A stretch of 64,000 nucleotides of DNA from Caryophanales bacterium UBA4856 (GTDB lineage Bacteria; Bacillota_I; Bacilli_A; RFN20; CAG-288), in NCBI GenBank assembly GCA_002399765.1, contig DHEG01000015.1, positions 8,973 to 72,972 on the forward strand, in the 5' to 3' direction. Of this stretch, positions 15,168-23,230 are shown one piece after another (position 1 is the first letter of the stretch; every line of letters begins with the position of its first letter). The notes beneath the pieces are model-generated. The model saw nothing but the letters and a program-made list of their open reading frames with translations. It did not search any database and was not told where the DNA came from. A program made the translations under genes and the position numbers.

Positions 15168-15243
15168 GGGGCTGTAGCTCAGTTGGGAGAGCACGTGCTT
15201 TGCAAGCACGGGGTCGCGAGTCCGATTCTCGTCAGCTCCACCA
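15168..15243 (+). tRNA. tRNA-Ala (anticodon TGC)
   Basis: All arms fold. The acceptor GGGGCTG (15168-15174) pairs with CAGCTCC (15233-15239), with one G-T wobble. The D arm uses GCTC/GAGC. The anticodon stem CGTGC/GCACG encloses loop TTTGCAA with TGC at 15201-15203. The T arm has the GTCCGATTC type loop. The CCA end is encoded (15241-15243). The anticodon UGC reads alanine GCN codons. Confidence 0.97.
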
Positions 15244-15378: not shown

Positions 15379-16512
15379 ATGAGAAAAGGTTTGGTTTCCG
15401 TAGTCGCTCTAGTAGCTTCGTTTGGGCTGCTCATGTCTTGCTCTGATACCACTGGTGGTTCCACTTCTTCCACCTCCTCCACCTCTTCGTCCTCTTCCCA
15501 GATCTCAAGTTCTTCCGCCTCGATTTCGACCTCAGTAGATGCCAACCACAAGATCAATCCGTACACCCGTGACACCACCTCCGGCACACGTGACGGCTTC
15601 TCGACCAAGATCGGTATCGAGAAAGCCAAATCCAACGATTCCCTCTTGACTAGTTCCGTCACGCAGGTCACCAGCAATGGCGACATGATGGCCAAGGTCG
15701 CAGCCGACGAATGGGGAATAGGCTACGCTTCCTTCTCCGATCTCAGTGCCAATACCGGCGTAAAGGGAATCGAGATCGAGGGGGTTGCTGCTTCCGAAGC
15801 CACCGTCCAGGACGGCTCTTACAAACTTCAGCGTAATTTCAATTACGTCATCCCGGTCGCTGGGGAAAACGACCGCTCTGATGTAAAGATGGCTTTGATT
15901 GATTCCTACGTTGCCTTCATGCATTCCGTCGAAGGCTTGGCCGTCATCAAGAACAAGGGGGGCATCCTGGATTCCTCAGTAATCAACAGTGCCCAAAGCT
16001 GGGATGACATCATCGCCGATACCACCGACAATCCTTGGGCGACGACCTTGGGCCTCACTTCCTCTGGCGCTACCAACACTTCAATCACTTCCGAGACCGT
16101 CTACTTCGTGGGTTCCACTTCCGTCCAGGATATGTCGACTGACCTTTCCACGGCCTGGTCAGCCCTGTTTGGCTCCAACGAACCCCAGATAAACCACAAC
16201 CACACCGGTTCGGGCGACGCCGTGAAGAAGGTCGCCGATGGCTCGGGCGATATCGGATTCGCCTCCCGTGAATTCACGGATGCCGAAAAGAGTGCCCACA
16301 CCACTTGGACTTTCGGCAAGATCTGCATGGATGCAATAAGCGTAATCATCAATGCCGACAACGACCTGATCAGCAACATCACCCTACAGCAGCTCCGCGA
16401 CATCTACGTCAATCCCACTGCCATCGCCGACTCCGCCACTTCCGAGACCAACTTCGGAGTTGACTATTCCGACGAGACTCCGATAACCACTTGGTCACAG
16501 TTGGTTGACTAA
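15379..16512 (+). CDS. pstS: Phosphate-binding lipoprotein PstS, apparently circularly permuted
   Basis: This 377-residue protein has a signal peptide with a lipobox LMSC (Cys 21) and a Ser/Thr-rich linker (23-52). It binds phosphate outside the membrane for the PstCAB importer. The domain order is unusual. Residues 58-200 carry what is normally the C-terminal half of PstS: the phosphate loop YTRDTTSGTRDGF at 62-74, WGIGYASF at 112-119, then YKLQRNF and the closing helix. Residues 240-377 carry the normal N-terminal half: VGSTSV at 244-249, TGSGDAV at 276-282, GDIGFASRE at 290-298, and ISNITLQQLRDIY at 331-343, ending at ITTWSQLVD. The last residues are those that usually precede the first loop, so the two ends would join seamlessly. 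First gene of the pst-pho operon, with AAAGGAAGG before the ATG. Confidence 0.88.
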   Translation: MRKGLVSVVALVASFGLLMSCSDTTGGSTSSTSSTSSSSSQISSSSASISTSVDANHKINPYTRDTTSGTRDGFSTKIGIEKAKSNDSLLTSSVTQVTSNGDMMAKVAADEWGIGYASFSDLSANTGVKGIEIEGVAASEATVQDGSYKLQRNFNYVIPVAGENDRSDVKMALIDSYVAFMHSVEGLAVIKNKGGILDSSVINSAQSWDDIIADTTDNPWATTLGLTSSGATNTSITSETVYFVGSTSVQDMSTDLSTAWSALFGSNEPQINHNHTGSGDAVKKVADGSGDIGFASREFTDAEKSAHTTWTFGKICMDAISVIINADNDLISNITLQQLRDIYVNPTAIADSATSETNFGVDYSDETPITTWSQLVD

Positions 16513-16575: not shown

Positions 16576-17667
16576 ATGGCAAGCAATGACGTCCAAGTCA
16601 ATAGCCAACTTTCCGGAGCCATAAGCCAGCAGGCCACCAAACGCGCTGACCGGGCCCGGAAGGAGGATGCCTTGGTCAAGGGTGTCTTCGCCCTCATCGC
16701 GCTTATTTGCGCGAGCGTCATCGTCTTCATAACCGTATTCGTCTTCTACAAAGGCATACTGCCATTCGTGAAGGAATATGAGTCGGTCACCAACGGGGGA
16801 GTGAACGGCTCGGGAAAGCAAAGCTTCGTCTCCTTCCTCACGGGAAGCTATTGGAATGCCGGCGAGTTCGACCACGCCGCCGGTTACCTTGCCGTGAACA
16901 CCATCTATGCCACCCTGCTGTCCCTGGTGATATCCGTTCCGGTATCCATCCTCGCCTCGCTATTCATAGTGCGCGTCGCACCCAAGGGCCTGGGCTGGGC
17001 CTTGGAGAGCGGCGTGGAATTGTTGGCCGACATCCCCTCGGTCATCTTTGGCCTCTTCGGCATGGGAGTGATCACCGCAGTCGTCAAGAACATAAGCCAG
17101 GCCTGGGGGATTCAGACCTCAGGGGGCGCTTCCCTCCTTTCCGGCGTAATCGTACTTTCGATGATGTCGATGCCCACCATGATATTGATGTCGGTGACCG
17201 CGATGAAGTCGGTCAATCCCAACCTAATCAACGCCTCCTTGGCCTTGGGTGCCACCAAGACCCAAACCGATTTCAAGATCGTGGTTTCCGATGCCCAATC
17301 GGGAATATTCGCCGGCCTCATACTGGGGATAGGCCGGGCGATGGGGGAAGCCACGGCCATCCAGATGGTAATCGGGAACGCGATGTCGGGACCTACCTGG
17401 AATCCCTTCAGCATCTCCGCTACCATAACCACCCAGATGCTTATGGGCATCGGGGAGGCCACGCCGGGTACCATGGGCTACGACATCCGCTTCTCCGCCG
17501 GCATCCTCCTGATGGTCCTTTTGATCGTCGTCGACTATTCCCTAAACCGCATCAAGGACACCCTCTATGCCCGTAGGACCGGTCAGAAGGCACCTCAGTC
17601 CTTGCTTTCGAAGGCTTTCCGAAAGATCTTCCATATCGGTAAAAAAGAGGCCACCGGCAATGAATGA
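16576..17667 (+). CDS. pstC: Phosphate ABC transporter permease PstC
   Basis: This 363-residue inner-membrane subunit pairs with PstA to form the phosphate channel. A helix lies at about 36-57 and is followed by an outside loop, then the permease core begins near LAVNTIYATLLSLVISVPVSILAS. The EAA-type loop that contacts PstB is visible as SLALGATKTQTDFKIVVSDAQSGI. The start used is the ATG at 16576, 5 bases after AAAGGAGA. A nearer ATG at 16572 is out of frame. The 3' end overlaps pstA by 8 bases. Confidence 0.95.
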   Translation: MASNDVQVNSQLSGAISQQATKRADRARKEDALVKGVFALIALICASVIVFITVFVFYKGILPFVKEYESVTNGGVNGSGKQSFVSFLTGSYWNAGEFDHAAGYLAVNTIYATLLSLVISVPVSILASLFIVRVAPKGLGWALESGVELLADIPSVIFGLFGMGVITAVVKNISQAWGIQTSGGASLLSGVIVLSMMSMPTMILMSVTAMKSVNPNLINASLALGATKTQTDFKIVVSDAQSGIFAGLILGIGRAMGEATAIQMVIGNAMSGPTWNPFSISATITTQMLMGIGEATPGTMGYDIRFSAGILLMVLLIVVDYSLNRIKDTLYARRTGQKAPQSLLSKAFRKIFHIGKKEATGNE

Positions 17668-19285
17668 TCTCCTGAATATGGATATAAGGGCCCTGGTAGA
17701 GAAAAAAGAAGCGGAGGGCAAGAGCGGCAGGGAGGCCGTCCAGTCCTTGGCTGAAGACGCGAAACTCATCAGGGCCAAGGACAGGGATGCCTTGGCCAAA
17801 TACCACGTAAGGCCCATGTTGGCTTGGCTCTATTCCTTCTTGCTAAACCGGGCCCTGGTCAAATACAACGAGAAGATGATCGAGGGCAAAAACGAGAAGG
17901 ACCGCCTGGCCCTGGACGACATGGAAGACGAGCCTGGCTATTCCGCCCAGGAGAAGAGGAAATCGGTCGAGCGCATCATCCGCAACGGAAAAAGGCGCGA
18001 ATTCCAAAGGGGGCTGGCCGATTTCCTCAAGCAGCTTTCCACCTACGTCATGTCGGCGATCTTGATAGTGATCCTGGTCGGCATCTTTGCCTATTGCTTC
18101 GAGGAAGGCTCCTCGACTCTCAGCTGGGACTTCATCACCGGCAATTACGAAGCAGAGACCACGGCCATCTACATGGACCCTGCCGATGCCTCGGATCCCC
18201 AAGCCCTTTTCACCTACGACACCACCAGCGACGACGAATACTTTTCCTCCCGCTGGGGCGTAGCCCTCATCGACACGACAAATTCCGATGGGACTTACGA
18301 CATGGAAATATCCTATATCGCTAGCGGATCCCCTCTGGAGACACTGAAGAACAAGTCCAGCGGGGAATACGTATCGGTCGCATTGGGTTCTTCGATCACG
18401 ACCTTGATCGGCAAAGACGATGAGGGCAATGCGGTCTGGATCTTGGCAACCGCCGACCACGCCCAGGCCTCGGCCGCCAATTTCGACAAGATGGCCTACA
18501 TCACTTCCGGCTACCTCTCGACAGGCGGCTATGGCATCAGGGGGCCGGTGGTGGCCACACTCTACTTCATCTTCTTCGCCCTGCTCTTCTCCCTGCCCTT
18601 GGGAATAGGGGGTGCCATCTATTTCTCGGTGTACGCCAAGAGGAACGCCATCAATTCAATCCTCAAGTCGATGGTCGACATGATATCGGGCGTCCCCTCG
18701 ATAATATTCGGCCTGGCCGGTGCCATCATCTTCATCCCGCTTTTCTCGGGCGGGGGGAGTATCGGCAACATCCTTTCCGGTTCGGCGACTCTGGCCTGCA
18801 TGGTGCTTCCGACCATAATGAAAAACACCGAGGAAGCCATAAAGAACATCCCCCATACCCTTAAGGACGCCTCCTTGGCTTTGGGGGCCTCCCAAACCCA
18901 GACCGTGTTCAAGGTCATACTTCCAAGTTCGGTCCCAGGCATCCTGACGGGCACCCTTTTGGCCATCGGGAGGATCATCGGCGAATCCGCCGCCCTGGTC
19001 TTCGCCACGGGCGTGGTCATCCAAGACGAGGTCACGCCCACCACCTCGGCGGCCTCATTGGCCGTCTACATCTGGCGGATAATGTCGGGCGAGGCTCCCA
19101 ATTACAAGGCCGCCGCGGCAACTTCGATACTGATACTCATGATAGTATTCATAATTAACATGTCGGTTAAGTTTTTGGCCTACAGGCTTGACAAGTTCAA
19201 GCCCATAAAGGCTCAAAACCCCATGTTGTCATGGCTCAAGAGGAGATTCGAAGGCAAGGAGAAAGCGAAGGAGGCCGGCAAATGA
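17660..19285 (+). CDS. pstA: Phosphate ABC transporter permease PstA with large N-terminal and external additions
   Basis: The C-terminal 250 residues (from [15 protein letters not shown], about 292) are a standard PstA permease with the EAA loop [20 protein letters not shown]. The protein has 541 residues against about 290 usually. Residues 1-125 are an extra, charged cytoplasmic segment. The first helix is about 128-147, and 148-290 form an inserted domain predicted to lie outside the membrane. The start is the ATG at 17660, which overlaps pstC by 8 bases. An in-frame upstream extension inside pstC is not needed. Enlarged PstA proteins are also annotated in Mollicutes (from memory, not checked here). 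The outer domain may contact the unusual PstS. Confidence 0.93.
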
Positions 19286-20193
19286 ACGAAGAAAGCGAAG
19301 AGGAAAAACGCGAGAGGGCCAAAGCCCAAAAGCGCCTCGAAGCCATGAGGGAAGCCGACAGGAGGGCCGACTTGGACATCGGGAGACCGGCCGTAATAGG
19401 CGCCCCGGCCATCGCCCAAGAGGAAGAGAAATACGAGACACCCAAAGACGTGGTGTTCGAGTCCCGCAGCCTTTGCCTTTCCTATGGGGACAAGGAAGCC
19501 CTCCATTCGATAAACATCAAGGTCTATCGGAAGAAGGTCACCGCCTTCATCGGCCCGTCCGGTTGTGGGAAGTCGACCTTCTTGCGGTGCTTCGACCGCA
19601 TGAACGACCTCATCGATACTTGCCATATCACCGGTCAGCTCCTCTATGACGGCATCGACGTCAAGCAGATGAACCCCATTCTCTTGCGCACCAGGGTCGG
19701 CATGGTATTCCAGCAGCCCAATCCCTTTCCGATGTCGATAAGGGACAACATTACCTATGGTCCCCGCTGCCAGGGGATAAGGGACAAGAAATATCTCGCC
19801 AAGCTTACCGAGGACAGCCTTAGGGAAGCGGCCCTCTACGATGAGGTGAAGGACCGGTTGAAGGATTCGGGCATGGCCTTGTCCGGCGGTCAGCAGCAAC
19901 GCCTTTGCATCGCTCGCTGCGTGGCCATGCGTCCTGACGTCATATTGATGGACGAACCCACTTCCGCCTTGGATCCCATCGCAACCAAGAAGATCGAGGA
20001 TTTGATAACCAAGTTGAAGGAGAAATACACCATCATCATCGTGACCCACAACATGCAGCAGGCGACCCGGGTCAGCGACTATACCGCCTTCTTCATGCTG
20101 GGTAGATTGGTCGAATTCGCCCCGACCGACGAGTTCTTCTCGCACCCCAAGGAAAAGGAGAGCGAGGACTACATTACCGGCAGGTTCAGCTAG
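19282..20193 (+). CDS. pstB: Phosphate ABC transporter ATPase PstB
   Basis: This 303-residue cytoplasmic ATPase drives phosphate import. Walker A is GPSGCGKST, the Q loop is [12 protein letters not shown], the signature is LSGGQQQR, Walker B is [13 protein letters not shown], and the switch is THNMQQA. About 60 charged residues precede the ATPase core ([16 protein letters not shown]), longer than usual. The start chosen is the ATG at 19282, which overlaps the pstA stop as ATGA. The frame is open further upstream, but that would lie inside pstA. Confidence 0.96.
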
Positions 20194-20207: not shown

Positions 20208-20858
20208 ATGAACCTAGATCAAGAACTAGCATACATAAACGAAGAAATAGAGAAGATGTTCTCCCTGACGAGGGAGTTCCTCAGGCGGGCCTTGGTGTAC
20301 TACCTTTCGAACGAGGACAGCCGCTTCGATGCCGAAATCGACGACGACCAGGTAAACGCCTGCGAACGCAACGTGGAGGCCTGGTGTCTCTCCATCCTCT
20401 TGAAGGAGAAGGTCTATGCCGCCGACCTGCGGCGGGTCACCGGAGCCTTGAAACTCGTGACCGACATCGAAAGGATCGGCGACCATGCCCGGGACATAAA
20501 GGAAGCGGCAGACAAGATCAAGGGCCTGAACGAGAAGGGGGTGGACCTTGCCCAGGTCCAGGAACTGGTCGACTGGGTCCTCAAGCTCTACGACGATTCG
20601 GTGAAGTCCTTCGTAAACTACGACACCGACCTGGCCGAGCAGGTGGCTTCCCACGACAACGAGGTCGACAACAAGTACGACGTCATCATGTCCGACCTCA
20701 TCAAGGTGGCCGAGAACAAGGAGATATCGACCCAATATGCCATCTACCAGACCTTGGTCCTTAAGTACATCGAGAGGATCGCCGACCATGCCGTCAACAT
20801 CGCCGAATGGGTCGTGTTCATCAAGAACGGCTTCCATAAGGACAGCATAATAATCTGA
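20208..20858 (+). CDS. phoU: Phosphate signalling protein PhoU
   Basis: This 216-residue all-helical protein contains the two PhoU repeats. Each carries a metal-binding helix, TDIERIGDHARDIKEAA in the first and KYIERIADHAVNIAEW in the second. PhoU links the Pst transporter to the sensor kinase and dampens the response when phosphate is plentiful. The length is normal. It follows pstB by 14 bases with a GAGGGAGATGGG ribosome site, and the response regulator begins 10 bases later. Confidence 0.95.
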   Translation: MNLDQELAYINEEIEKMFSLTREFLRRALVYYLSNEDSRFDAEIDDDQVNACERNVEAWCLSILLKEKVYAADLRRVTGALKLVTDIERIGDHARDIKEAADKIKGLNEKGVDLAQVQELVDWVLKLYDDSVKSFVNYDTDLAEQVASHDNEVDNKYDVIMSDLIKVAENKEISTQYAIYQTLVLKYIERIADHAVNIAEWVVFIKNGFHKDSIII

Positions 20859-20868
20859 GGTAAGGCCA

Positions 20869-21564
20869 ATGGAAAAGGGCAGCGATAGGGACGACCGTTC
20901 GGTTGCGGTCGTAGAAGACAACGATGACATACGTAACCTGGAAGTTTTGGCCTTGACCAAGGAAGGCTATTCGGTCCGGCCTTTTGCTGATGGCCGGTCT
21001 TTCCTGACGGGTTTCGCCAAGGATAAGCCAGATTTGGTCATCCTCGACCTGATGCTGCCAGACATCCAGGGCGAGGAAATACTAAGGGAGATCAGGAAGG
21101 ATACCGAAAATGCCGAGGTCCAGGTGATAATCGTGTCAGCCAAGACCATGCTGACGGACAAGGTCCTCGGTCTCGATTCAGGGGCTGACGACTACATCGA
21201 GAAGCCATTCGACATCTTGGAATTCCTGGCCCGCGTCAATGCCCGGTTCCGCAACGTCCCCGGAACCAAGAAGATGGAATTCGCCGGCTTGACCCTTGAT
21301 CCGAACGCCCACCAAGCCTTTTTCAGGGGAAGTGAACTGCACCTCACCAACGCCGAATTCGCAATCCTTAGGGAATTGATAGCCAAGGGGGGATCGGTCG
21401 TAAGCCGCCAGCACCTAATCCAAGTCCTCTGGGGCCATGTGGACCCCTTGACGACCAGGACCATCGACATGCATGTCCGCGCGATAAGGCTGAAGATAGA
21501 TGACAGAGAGGGGAAACTCCTCCAAACCGTCTACGGAATAGGCTACCGCCTTTCGGAAAAGTGA
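20869..21564 (+). CDS. phoP: OmpR-family response regulator, PhoP/PhoB type
   Basis: This 231-residue protein has a receiver domain with acidic pair Glu 16/Asp 17, phospho-acceptor Asp 60 (ILDLMLPD) and Lys 112 (EKPFD). A winged-helix DNA-binding domain follows at about 130-231 (TNAEFAILRELI, then TTRTIDMHVRAIRLKI and VYGIGYRL). Its position between phoU and a histidine kinase indicates the phosphate-starvation regulator. The likely target is the repeat at 15285-15312. Confidence 0.93.
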   Translation: MEKGSDRDDRSVAVVEDNDDIRNLEVLALTKEGYSVRPFADGRSFLTGFAKDKPDLVILDLMLPDIQGEEILREIRKDTENAEVQVIIVSAKTMLTDKVLGLDSGADDYIEKPFDILEFLARVNARFRNVPGTKKMEFAGLTLDPNAHQAFFRGSELHLTNAEFAILRELIAKGGSVVSRQHLIQVLWGHVDPLTTRTIDMHVRAIRLKIDDREGKLLQTVYGIGYRLSEK

Positions 21565-21571
21565 GGGGGAA

Positions 21572-23230
21572 ATGAGGAAACGGATTGGGCTCTCCTGGCT
21601 TTTGGTGGGAATAGGCGGAATGGCCGCTCTGTATCTGGGGACCGCCTTGCCTTACTACCTGACTCAGGAAACAAGGCTGAAGAGCATCGTCAATGCCACG
21701 GGAAACACTCTTTCCGATTTTTTCTACGCCAACGGTTTAGCCTCTTTCGAAAGTAATGTGGCCGAAAGCTACCAACTCAATCCCTTGGGCGAGGATACGA
21801 TAGTGTTGCTCAACTCCTCAGCGGGATTCGAGACCCTTGCAGGTGACGGGAGTGGGATCGAGGCGGAGGCATTCACGGGGAAAAGAGAGACCTTCTATGT
21901 AAACGGTGGTGGCATAGGGTACCTCGCCTTCGATTCGGGCCTTTTGACGGCAAAGGATGGTACCAGCGGGGAATTCGTCTTCGGGGTGAGAACCGCTCCC
22001 TGGCTTCTGGTTCCCCTTTCCCTCATCTATGCGGGAGCCGCCTTTTGGGTTGCCACCAGCGTGGTGATGACGGCCCTGTGGCTTGACTTCACCACGAAGT
22101 TGGCCAGGCCCATCGGGAAGGCAGTGGAAAGCCTCTCCAAGGCCGGGGGATTGGATCTCCAGGGCTGGAACTTCGCAAGCAACCCAAACTTGATGGTCCC
22201 TGCCATCGAGGTATCCACCGGCATCTTGGCGAGCAATGCGGCCAGCGCCGAGCAGGAGCGGGACAAGGCCCAAATAATTCTCGACTCCATGACCCAGGGC
22301 TTCTTGGCCTTAGACTACGGCGGGTCGGCAATCCTGGAAAACCAAAAGGCCAGCGAGATCCTTGGCGCGGGCGGCAAGGGGCAAGGTTTTGCAAATCCCG
22401 TCGGCGAATTCAAGGATTCGATAGCGAAGGTGTTGGGCGAAGGCAAGAGTCAGTCCCTGGACTGGGAGCGCGGGGACAAGATATATTTCGTCACCCTCTC
22501 CCGCTTCAAGGTAAAGGAGCAAAAGCCGGGCGTGGCCCTGGTATTCGAGGACGTTTCCGATAGGAGGCGACTCGAGAATGCCAAGACCGACTTCTTCGTC
22601 TATGCCAGCCACGAGCTCAAGTCGCCCTTGACCTCCATCATCGGGTATCAGGAAATGATAAGGTCGGGATTGCTAAAGAAGCCCGCGGAGATCAACACCG
22701 CCTTGGATAACTCGATCAGGCAGGCCAAGGAGATGAGGGGAATGATAAGGGACATGCTTGACCTTTCCTACTTGGAGTCCAGTCAACCACGTTCGCTTTC
22801 GCCCGTCGATCTCGGCCGGGTTGCCCTTTCCTGCATCGAGGACTTTGTGCCGGAAGCGAACGCAAGGGGGGTGAAGATCATCCGCGACCTGCAAAGCCTG
22901 ACGTTCGACATGAATCCCCAGGATGCGGAAAGACTATTGCGAAACCTGATGGACAATGCCCTGAAGTACAACCGTCCCAATGGCTCCGTCTTCGTCGGGA
23001 TCGATGCCAAGGAAAGGAAGATAACGGTCGCGGATACGGGCGTCGGCATCGCGAAGGAGGATCTTGCCCGCATCTTCGAGAGGTTCTATAGGGTAAAGGG
23101 GACCAAGGCCGAAGGAACCGGCTTGGGTTTAGCCATAGTCAAACACGTCTGCCTTTACTATTCGATCAAGATCGCCGTCGAATCGGAGCTGAACAAGGGC
23201 ACCAGCTTCGTCTTGACCTTCCCCAAGTGA
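21572..23230 (+). CDS. phoR: Sensor histidine kinase, PhoR type
   Basis: This 552-residue membrane kinase has TM1 at about 8-28, an outside domain at 30-140, TM2 at 143-170, a PAS-like segment at 232-330 (ILDSMTQGFLALDYGG), an H box SHELKSPLTS (His 347), an N box LRNLMDNALKYN (about 457-468), a G box ADTGVGI (about 488-494) and GTGLGLAIVKH. It follows the regulator by 7 bases. The outside domain is larger than a simple PhoR loop but shows no motif I recognise. Its stop abuts the stop of the opposite gene with no bases between. Confidence 0.92.
   Translation: MRKRIGLSWLLVGIGGMAALYLGTALPYYLTQETRLKSIVNATGNTLSDFFYANGLASFESNVAESYQLNPLGEDTIVLLNSSAGFETLAGDGSGIEAEAFTGKRETFYVNGGGIGYLAFDSGLLTAKDGTSGEFVFGVRTAPWLLVPLSLIYAGAAFWVATSVVMTALWLDFTTKLARPIGKAVESLSKAGGLDLQGWNFASNPNLMVPAIEVSTGILASNAASAEQERDKAQIILDSMTQGFLALDYGGSAILENQKASEILGAGGKGQGFANPVGEFKDSIAKVLGEGKSQSLDWERGDKIYFVTLSRFKVKEQKPGVALVFEDVSDRRRLENAKTDFFVYASHELKSPLTSIIGYQEMIRSGLLKKPAEINTALDNSIRQAKEMRGMIRDMLDLSYLESSQPRSLSPVDLGRVALSCIEDFVPEANARGVKIIRDLQSLTFDMNPQDAERLLRNLMDNALKYNRPNGSVFVGIDAKERKITVADTGVGIAKEDLARIFERFYRVKGTKAEGTGLGLAIVKHVCLYYSIKIAVESELNKGTSFVLTFPK

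Follow-up and report, generated by a model that had tools for sequence, protein, structure and literature searches.

Pneumococcal PstS2 (SP_2084; PDB 4h1x, released 2012) is a solved structure in which the two halves of the PstS chain are permuted. The same order was found in a lipoprotein PstS encoded in a 64,000-nucleotide stretch of Caryophanales bacterium UBA4856 (GenBank assembly GCA_002399765.1, contig DHEG01000015.1, positions 8,973 to 72,972 of the forward strand), hereafter called the window. A model of the window protein superposed on 4h1x over 252 of 257 residues at 1.7 Å, with a sequence identity of 24% (Foldseek) to 31% (VIA-align); the linker of 4h1x is short and lacks the W..II motif of the window-type linker. 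A single origin of the pneumococcal and window-type permutations was neither shown nor rejected (p = 0.299 in the approximately unbiased (AU) test), and we do not claim that they are independent. Canonical Firmicutes PstS proteins (4gd5, 4q8r; TIGR02136) have the same halves and binding motifs and, like the window protein, are encoded with pstC in most loci compared, but their halves are in the other order and they have no linker-derived tail. Among binding proteins of ATP-binding cassette transporters, the membrane-tethered TpMglB-2 of Treponema pallidum ("Type Ic") is a natural circular permutant that still binds its ligand; it differs in its type I fold class and in binding glucose, and the sections of that account used here describe no reversals or tandem forms (PMC4990184). 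For DNA methyltransferases and saposin/swaposin, a route through tandem duplicates like that considered below has been proposed, according to the part of the review used here (PMC3320104); the PstS family differs from these in having several orders, tandem genes and apparent returns in one gene, at one operon position and among close relatives. A cyanobacterial PstS-like structure (PDB 9l8j) carries a title that mentions "an evolutionary hotspot".

The window gene is an open reading frame (ORF) of 377 residues at 15379–16512 (+). Its motifs run in the order YTRDTTSGTRDGF (residues 62–74), VGSTSV (244–249), TGSGDAV (276–282), GDIGFASRE (290–298) and ITTWSQLVD (369–377). In a comparison with our own profile of 23 ordinary PstS proteins, residues 56–196 matched profile positions 113–238 (76.6 bits) and residues 241–344 matched positions 2–100 (65.2 bits). 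The swapped order was thereby confirmed far beyond chance, and it was also given by TIGR02136 and by PDB sequences. The PstS family PF12849 (PBP_like_2) matched in two stretches with 57.1 bits, above its gathering cut-off of 27, whereas TIGR02136, also matching in two stretches, scored 106.6 bits and stayed under its curated cut-off of 206.6, presumably because a linear model cannot span the permuted chain. By model and profile, each part of the parent fold occurs once, in cyclically shifted order and with the same three-dimensional fold, as in a circular permutation. No second match to either half was found within the window beyond chance level (E 0.94 and 0.37). The preliminary description, made from the letters alone, had read the protein as a PstS with the C-terminal half before the N-terminal half, and the superposition that it proposed and the two swapped profile blocks, in place of a collinear alignment, bear this out; all the motifs that it cited are at the residues it gave. 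It had also held that both halves are complete and the lipobox intact, so that the gene does not look decayed, and in this too it was right.

The old N- and C-terminal ends of PstS lie near each other, and for this reason the chain can open where loops allow. In the window protein the linker joins the old ends, and the new ends lie in the loop immediately ahead of the phosphate-loop strand. Once the chain is closed up, the predicted fold and binding cleft are unchanged, such that phosphate should be bound and handed to PstCAB as by any PstS. The motifs GSTS, GSG, SR and R..SGT, which we take to correspond to the phosphate site of the E. coli protein, were invariant in 75 aligned permuted sequences, except for T247 (at least 90%), as was the lipobox Cys21. 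The PstS fold of the prediction and the invariance of these motifs make a role in capturing phosphate and passing it to PstCAB the best reading: the protein is presumably expressed and would be a functional, lipid-anchored phosphate-binding protein of a Pst importer.

The permuted order is usual among the sampled Acholeplasmatales and related Bacilli. With CN denoting the permuted and NC the canonical order of the halves, and CNCN and CNCNCN tandem genes, 97 of the 120 relatives listed were CN, 18 NC and 4 CNCN, while one (P0024) had a third order. The 79 loci from genome records comprised 71 CN, 4 NC, 3 CNCN and 1 CNCNCN of 910 residues. Relatives were sampled with a permuted query, which favors CN in these samples. 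The CN order occurs in the cultured strains Acholeplasma granularum (L046), A. oculi (L058), Paracholeplasma vituli (L060) and A. laidlawii (L062). In an order-level genome sample, 64 of 196 genomes gave a match: by our count of the listing, 46 were CN over most of the profile, 5 were NC near relatives and 9 ordinary or distant NC; one had the third order (G012, locus L112), and three had only pieces (G033, G058, G068). When 284 proteins were classified (ORFs of 120 residues or more, from partly overlapping loci), 208 were CN, 63 NC, 9 CNCN, 2 CNCNCN, 1 CNCNC (L080, ended by the locus boundary) and 1 CNC; P0024 was scored there as NC, its short first piece falling under the threshold. Among the matches listed, 24 of 25 half-match pairs were permuted. 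A scan of viral contigs found no relatives of the window PstS. One record titled as a Staphylococcus epidermidis metagenome-assembled genome (L076) has an Acholeplasma-type permuted pstS; the title is probably a binning error.

Tandem homologues, which the preliminary description had proposed to look for in relatives, were found as double (L023, L026, L033, L158) and triple (L002) pstS genes, all of the permuted unit; L161 is apparently a repeat of L026, and L159 belongs to the same genome as L002. In DNA, the units of a gene were from 83.6% (L158) to 98.9% (L026, with an identical run of 798 bases) identical, and the tandem genes were spread over several parts of the permuted clade. The site motifs were kept in the tandem units read, suggesting that the proteins probably bind two or three phosphates. 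Directly downstream lay pstC in all 7 uncut tandem loci, as in L112 and the NC loci L012, L016, L031, L074, L113 and L114. In L112 the third order, with the chain ends placed where the strand past RNFNYV finishes, stands in an intact operon; that this order arose twice was not established (AU p = 0.0695). P0047 has a canonical-order PstS core between unrelated ends, without an evident signal peptide; in a first tree it adjoined a unit of the triple gene (support 0.3), and it may derive from a tandem gene by trimming, or from misassembly.

In the standard model of circular permutation, as set out in the part of the review used here (PMC3320104), a gene is duplicated in tandem and then acquires new start and stop sites. 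By this mechanism pstS would duplicate in tandem and then be trimmed, moving the chain ends among at least three places. Since tandem genes exist today, this route is likely for the returns to canonical order described below, with genes of the present type as the likely intermediates. The tandem genes found are duplicates of an already permuted unit, which fits such returns; no NCNC tandem of canonical units, through which the first swap would have passed, occurred among the 284 classified proteins. With this reservation for the first swap, the proposal that an ancestral tandem duplication lost its outer halves is made likely by the double and triple genes. No relics of lost outer halves were seen beside pstS: of seven loci with matches outside the main ORF, five (L009, L029, L056, L071, L098) had an alignment continuing past the stop into unlike sequence, and, judging by coordinates, the match in L097 comes from a frame break within the one gene and that in L150 from a second copy. 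The best-surviving alternative, which we nevertheless consider unlikely, is that the gene split into two, one for each half, which later fused again with their order swapped. Fission and fusion is the second recognized model in the same part of that review (PMC3320104); set against this, none of the 284 proteins was a lone half and 12 were tandem, in a classification that was not aimed at split genes and with three of the 64 matching genomes of the order-level sample yielding only pieces.

For the main tree, the N and C halves of 110 rows were arranged in one shared order, giving 253 columns, and analyzed in IQ-TREE with a site mixture. The 110 rows were kept from 216 after leaving out long branches or odd ends (P0047, L125, L126, L155, L156, L157, L160), partial sequences (L111, L097, P0104) and near-duplicates; short rows (L124, L127, L130, L131) and repeats of L080 had been removed earlier. 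An 82-row clade (support 99/98) contained the window and its relatives, with two separate NC groups of 5 and 4 rows inside it. The first was nested with the window in a clade of 11 rows (100/98), and the second in a 9-row clade whose other rows were permuted (100/90). Over the whole tree, the order changed at least 7 times. When the two halves were analyzed separately, the 82 rows formed one group in each tree with both NC groups inside, from which it follows that the NC genes did not arise as chimeras with ordinary pstS. In a tree of the neighboring PstA (99 rows, unrooted, as outgroup rooting was without effect, so that its groups are splits), NC loci L012, L016, L031 and L114 joined the window, L015 and L001 (Shimodaira–Hasegawa-like approximate likelihood ratio support 99), and NC loci L074 and L113 joined permuted L011 and L022 (81), with permuted and tandem operons at the next step out (99).

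The NC groups also carry what may be a scar. Ordinary PstS proteins end 8–24 residues past one fixed C-half column (36 rows, excluding P0047 and L083, which are "ordinary" by label only; L083 repeats L074), while all 23 NC-group rows end 30–33 residues past it, 5 of the 6 loci among them repeating listed proteins. The tail resembles the linker of the permuted sisters. Group 1 ends in ...DIVAEADWAVTLGLR, where permuted P0005 reads ...ELCADTSNSWAVTLGLNGD and continues into the N half. Group 2 terminates in ...WDEIKNSNKDFKELCSK, where permuted P0039 reads ...WSTIIAKSENDDVEALCSATT. On the simplest reading, the linker was reopened in these groups and left as a tail. The history that we favor would be one swap and two returns, with the order having reverted to canonical at least twice inside the permuted clade.

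Forcing the 73 inner permuted rows together cost 146 log units (AU p = 4.81e-05) and forcing the two NC groups together was rejected (2.52e-10), but these values are optimistic, as the groups were named after the first tree had been seen. This is one of several points that weigh against the returns and the forms associated with them. The branches adjoining the NC groups had modest support (83/26 and 71/31), leaving the exact sisters open; local supports in the tree of N halves were 34–86; and in the tree of C halves group 2 did not form a single clade, 5 permuted rows being interspersed with it. Metagenome assemblies are the source of most relatives, the tandem repeats that are most similar (98–99% DNA identity) could be misassembled, and P0024, the second third-order case, may be cut at a contig end. 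In principle, two lines could have kept the canonical order, the swap having arisen repeatedly and independently at one and the same loop. That loop is evidently permissive: pneumococcal-type PstS is cut there and falls among ordinary PstS in free trees, common origin not being rejected. Such a history would take about 13 parallel events, as read off the 110-row tree, compared to one swap and two returns, and would make the tail ancestral although the 36 ordinary rows lack it; we regard it as improbable, slightly more so than fission and fusion. Hardly credible is an origin of the permuted order in assembly errors or in genes split and rejoined in metagenomes, which the predominance of such sources and two apparent joins with other operon genes might suggest, but which, apart from isolated rare forms like P0024 and P0047, is refuted by the cultured strains and the crystal structure 4h1x. 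The two joins are P0103 (PstS with PhoU) and P0040 (PstS with the ATPase end of a histidine kinase), either operon deletions or assembly joins, the partners being pst-operon neighbors. At the window gene itself an assembly error is unlikely, because P0002, recorded with 4 contigs, is 99% identical to its product and because most listed relatives share its order.

We consider it highly probable that the window gene encodes a permuted phosphate-binding PstS from a family whose chain ends are labile through tandem duplication and trimming, with at least two returns to canonical order. Its computed basis comprises the order, the predicted fold, the operon context, the nesting of the NC groups, the linker scar, the tandem genes and the third order in an intact operon. 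A stronger form, which we hold to be probable with somewhat less confidence, is that PstS of this branch of Bacilli is topologically fluid, going through repeated cycles of duplication and trimming. The chain ends would have shifted among three sites (the canonical ones, the loop preceding the phosphate loop, and the point past RNFNYV where the strand finishes), and the canonical order would truly have come back at least twice. Three orders of the same fold would then occur in closely related pst operons, those of the window, L112 and L012, which fall in one PstA group of 8.

In the window, pstS is followed by pstC, pstA, pstB, phoU and genes for a PhoB-like regulator and a PhoR/PnpS-like kinase, placing it in a pst operon (Table 1). 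In the fetched loci, some of which overlap, pstC lay at most 1500 bases downstream of 107 of 110 permuted ORFs. A transfer RNA gene, tRNA-Ala (tgc), is found at 15168–15243, about 135 bases upstream of pstS. In a comparison of 87 loci, the stretch of PstA ahead of the permease core, measured from the nearest stop codon upstream, was 155–324 residues long in the permuted clade, canonical-order members included, and 40–102 residues in the 8 other loci; it was longest near the window (L001, 299; L012, 324). The extension is probably extracytoplasmic, and no Pfam family was found to match it in the window protein. A tie to the permuted order was rejected, as the extension follows the clade.

Table 1. 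Features of the window pstS gene and the genes downstream.
Feature	Positions	Strand	Evidence
Signal peptide and lipobox, lipidated Cys21	15379..15441	+	Sequence; Cys21 invariant in 75 aligned sequences
Ser/Thr-rich tether from lipid anchor to fold, residues 22–55	15442..15543	+	Sequence; mostly low predicted local distance difference test score (pLDDT)
Old C-terminal half (phosphate loop, GIGYASF, RNFNYV, last helices), residues 56–199	15544..15975	+	Profile positions 113–238; PDB sequences; model superposition
Linker from old C-terminus to old N-terminus, residues 200–239 (W..II....WATTLGL....ETV)	15976..16095	+	Counterpart is the C-terminal tail of canonical-order relatives
Old N-terminal half (VGSTSV, TGSGDA, DIGFASRE) to new C-terminus ITTWSQLVD, residues 240–377 and stop	16096..16512	+	Profile; PDB sequences; model superposition
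pstC, permease	16576..17667	+	TIGR02138 1.7e-55, just under cut-off
pstA, permease with long N-terminal extension, start inferred (ORF list: from 17567)	17660..19285	+	TIGR00974 4.4e-59, core 321–541 of longer ORF
pstB, ATPase, start uncertain	19231..20193	+	TIGR00972 1.8e-115, over cut-off
phoU	20208..20858	+	TIGR02135 6.9e-45, over cut-off
PhoB-like response regulator	20869..21564	+	TIGR02154 6.5e-50, MtrA 9.6e-52, both below cut-off
PhoR/PnpS-like histidine kinase	21572..23230	+	NF046044 6.9e-64, below cut-off

The preliminary description knew of no described permuted PstS. For the text of papers this may hold, as our open-access literature search found, among the papers listed, none calling 4h1x or PstS permuted, none naming "4H1X" and none relevant on phosphate transporters and permutation; yet a solved structure is permuted, and the order is usual in the sampled relatives. 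The window gene taken alone is therefore of a kind already in the PDB, apparently unremarked, and what appears to be new are the reversals, the third order and the tandem genes. The permutation had been recognized correctly; the later returns lay beyond what that description could see. To our knowledge, circular permutation has mostly been inferred once, between distant proteins and long after the event. Linear profile models, as the missed TIGR02136 cut-off illustrates, and structure searches bound to chain order under-score permuted proteins. In this family the tandem forms, two permuted forms and returned forms stand side by side at one operon position, making the duplication model, its direction and its cost directly testable. 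With some relatives apparently swapped back, the movement of the ends of a protein chain may be observable in evolution.
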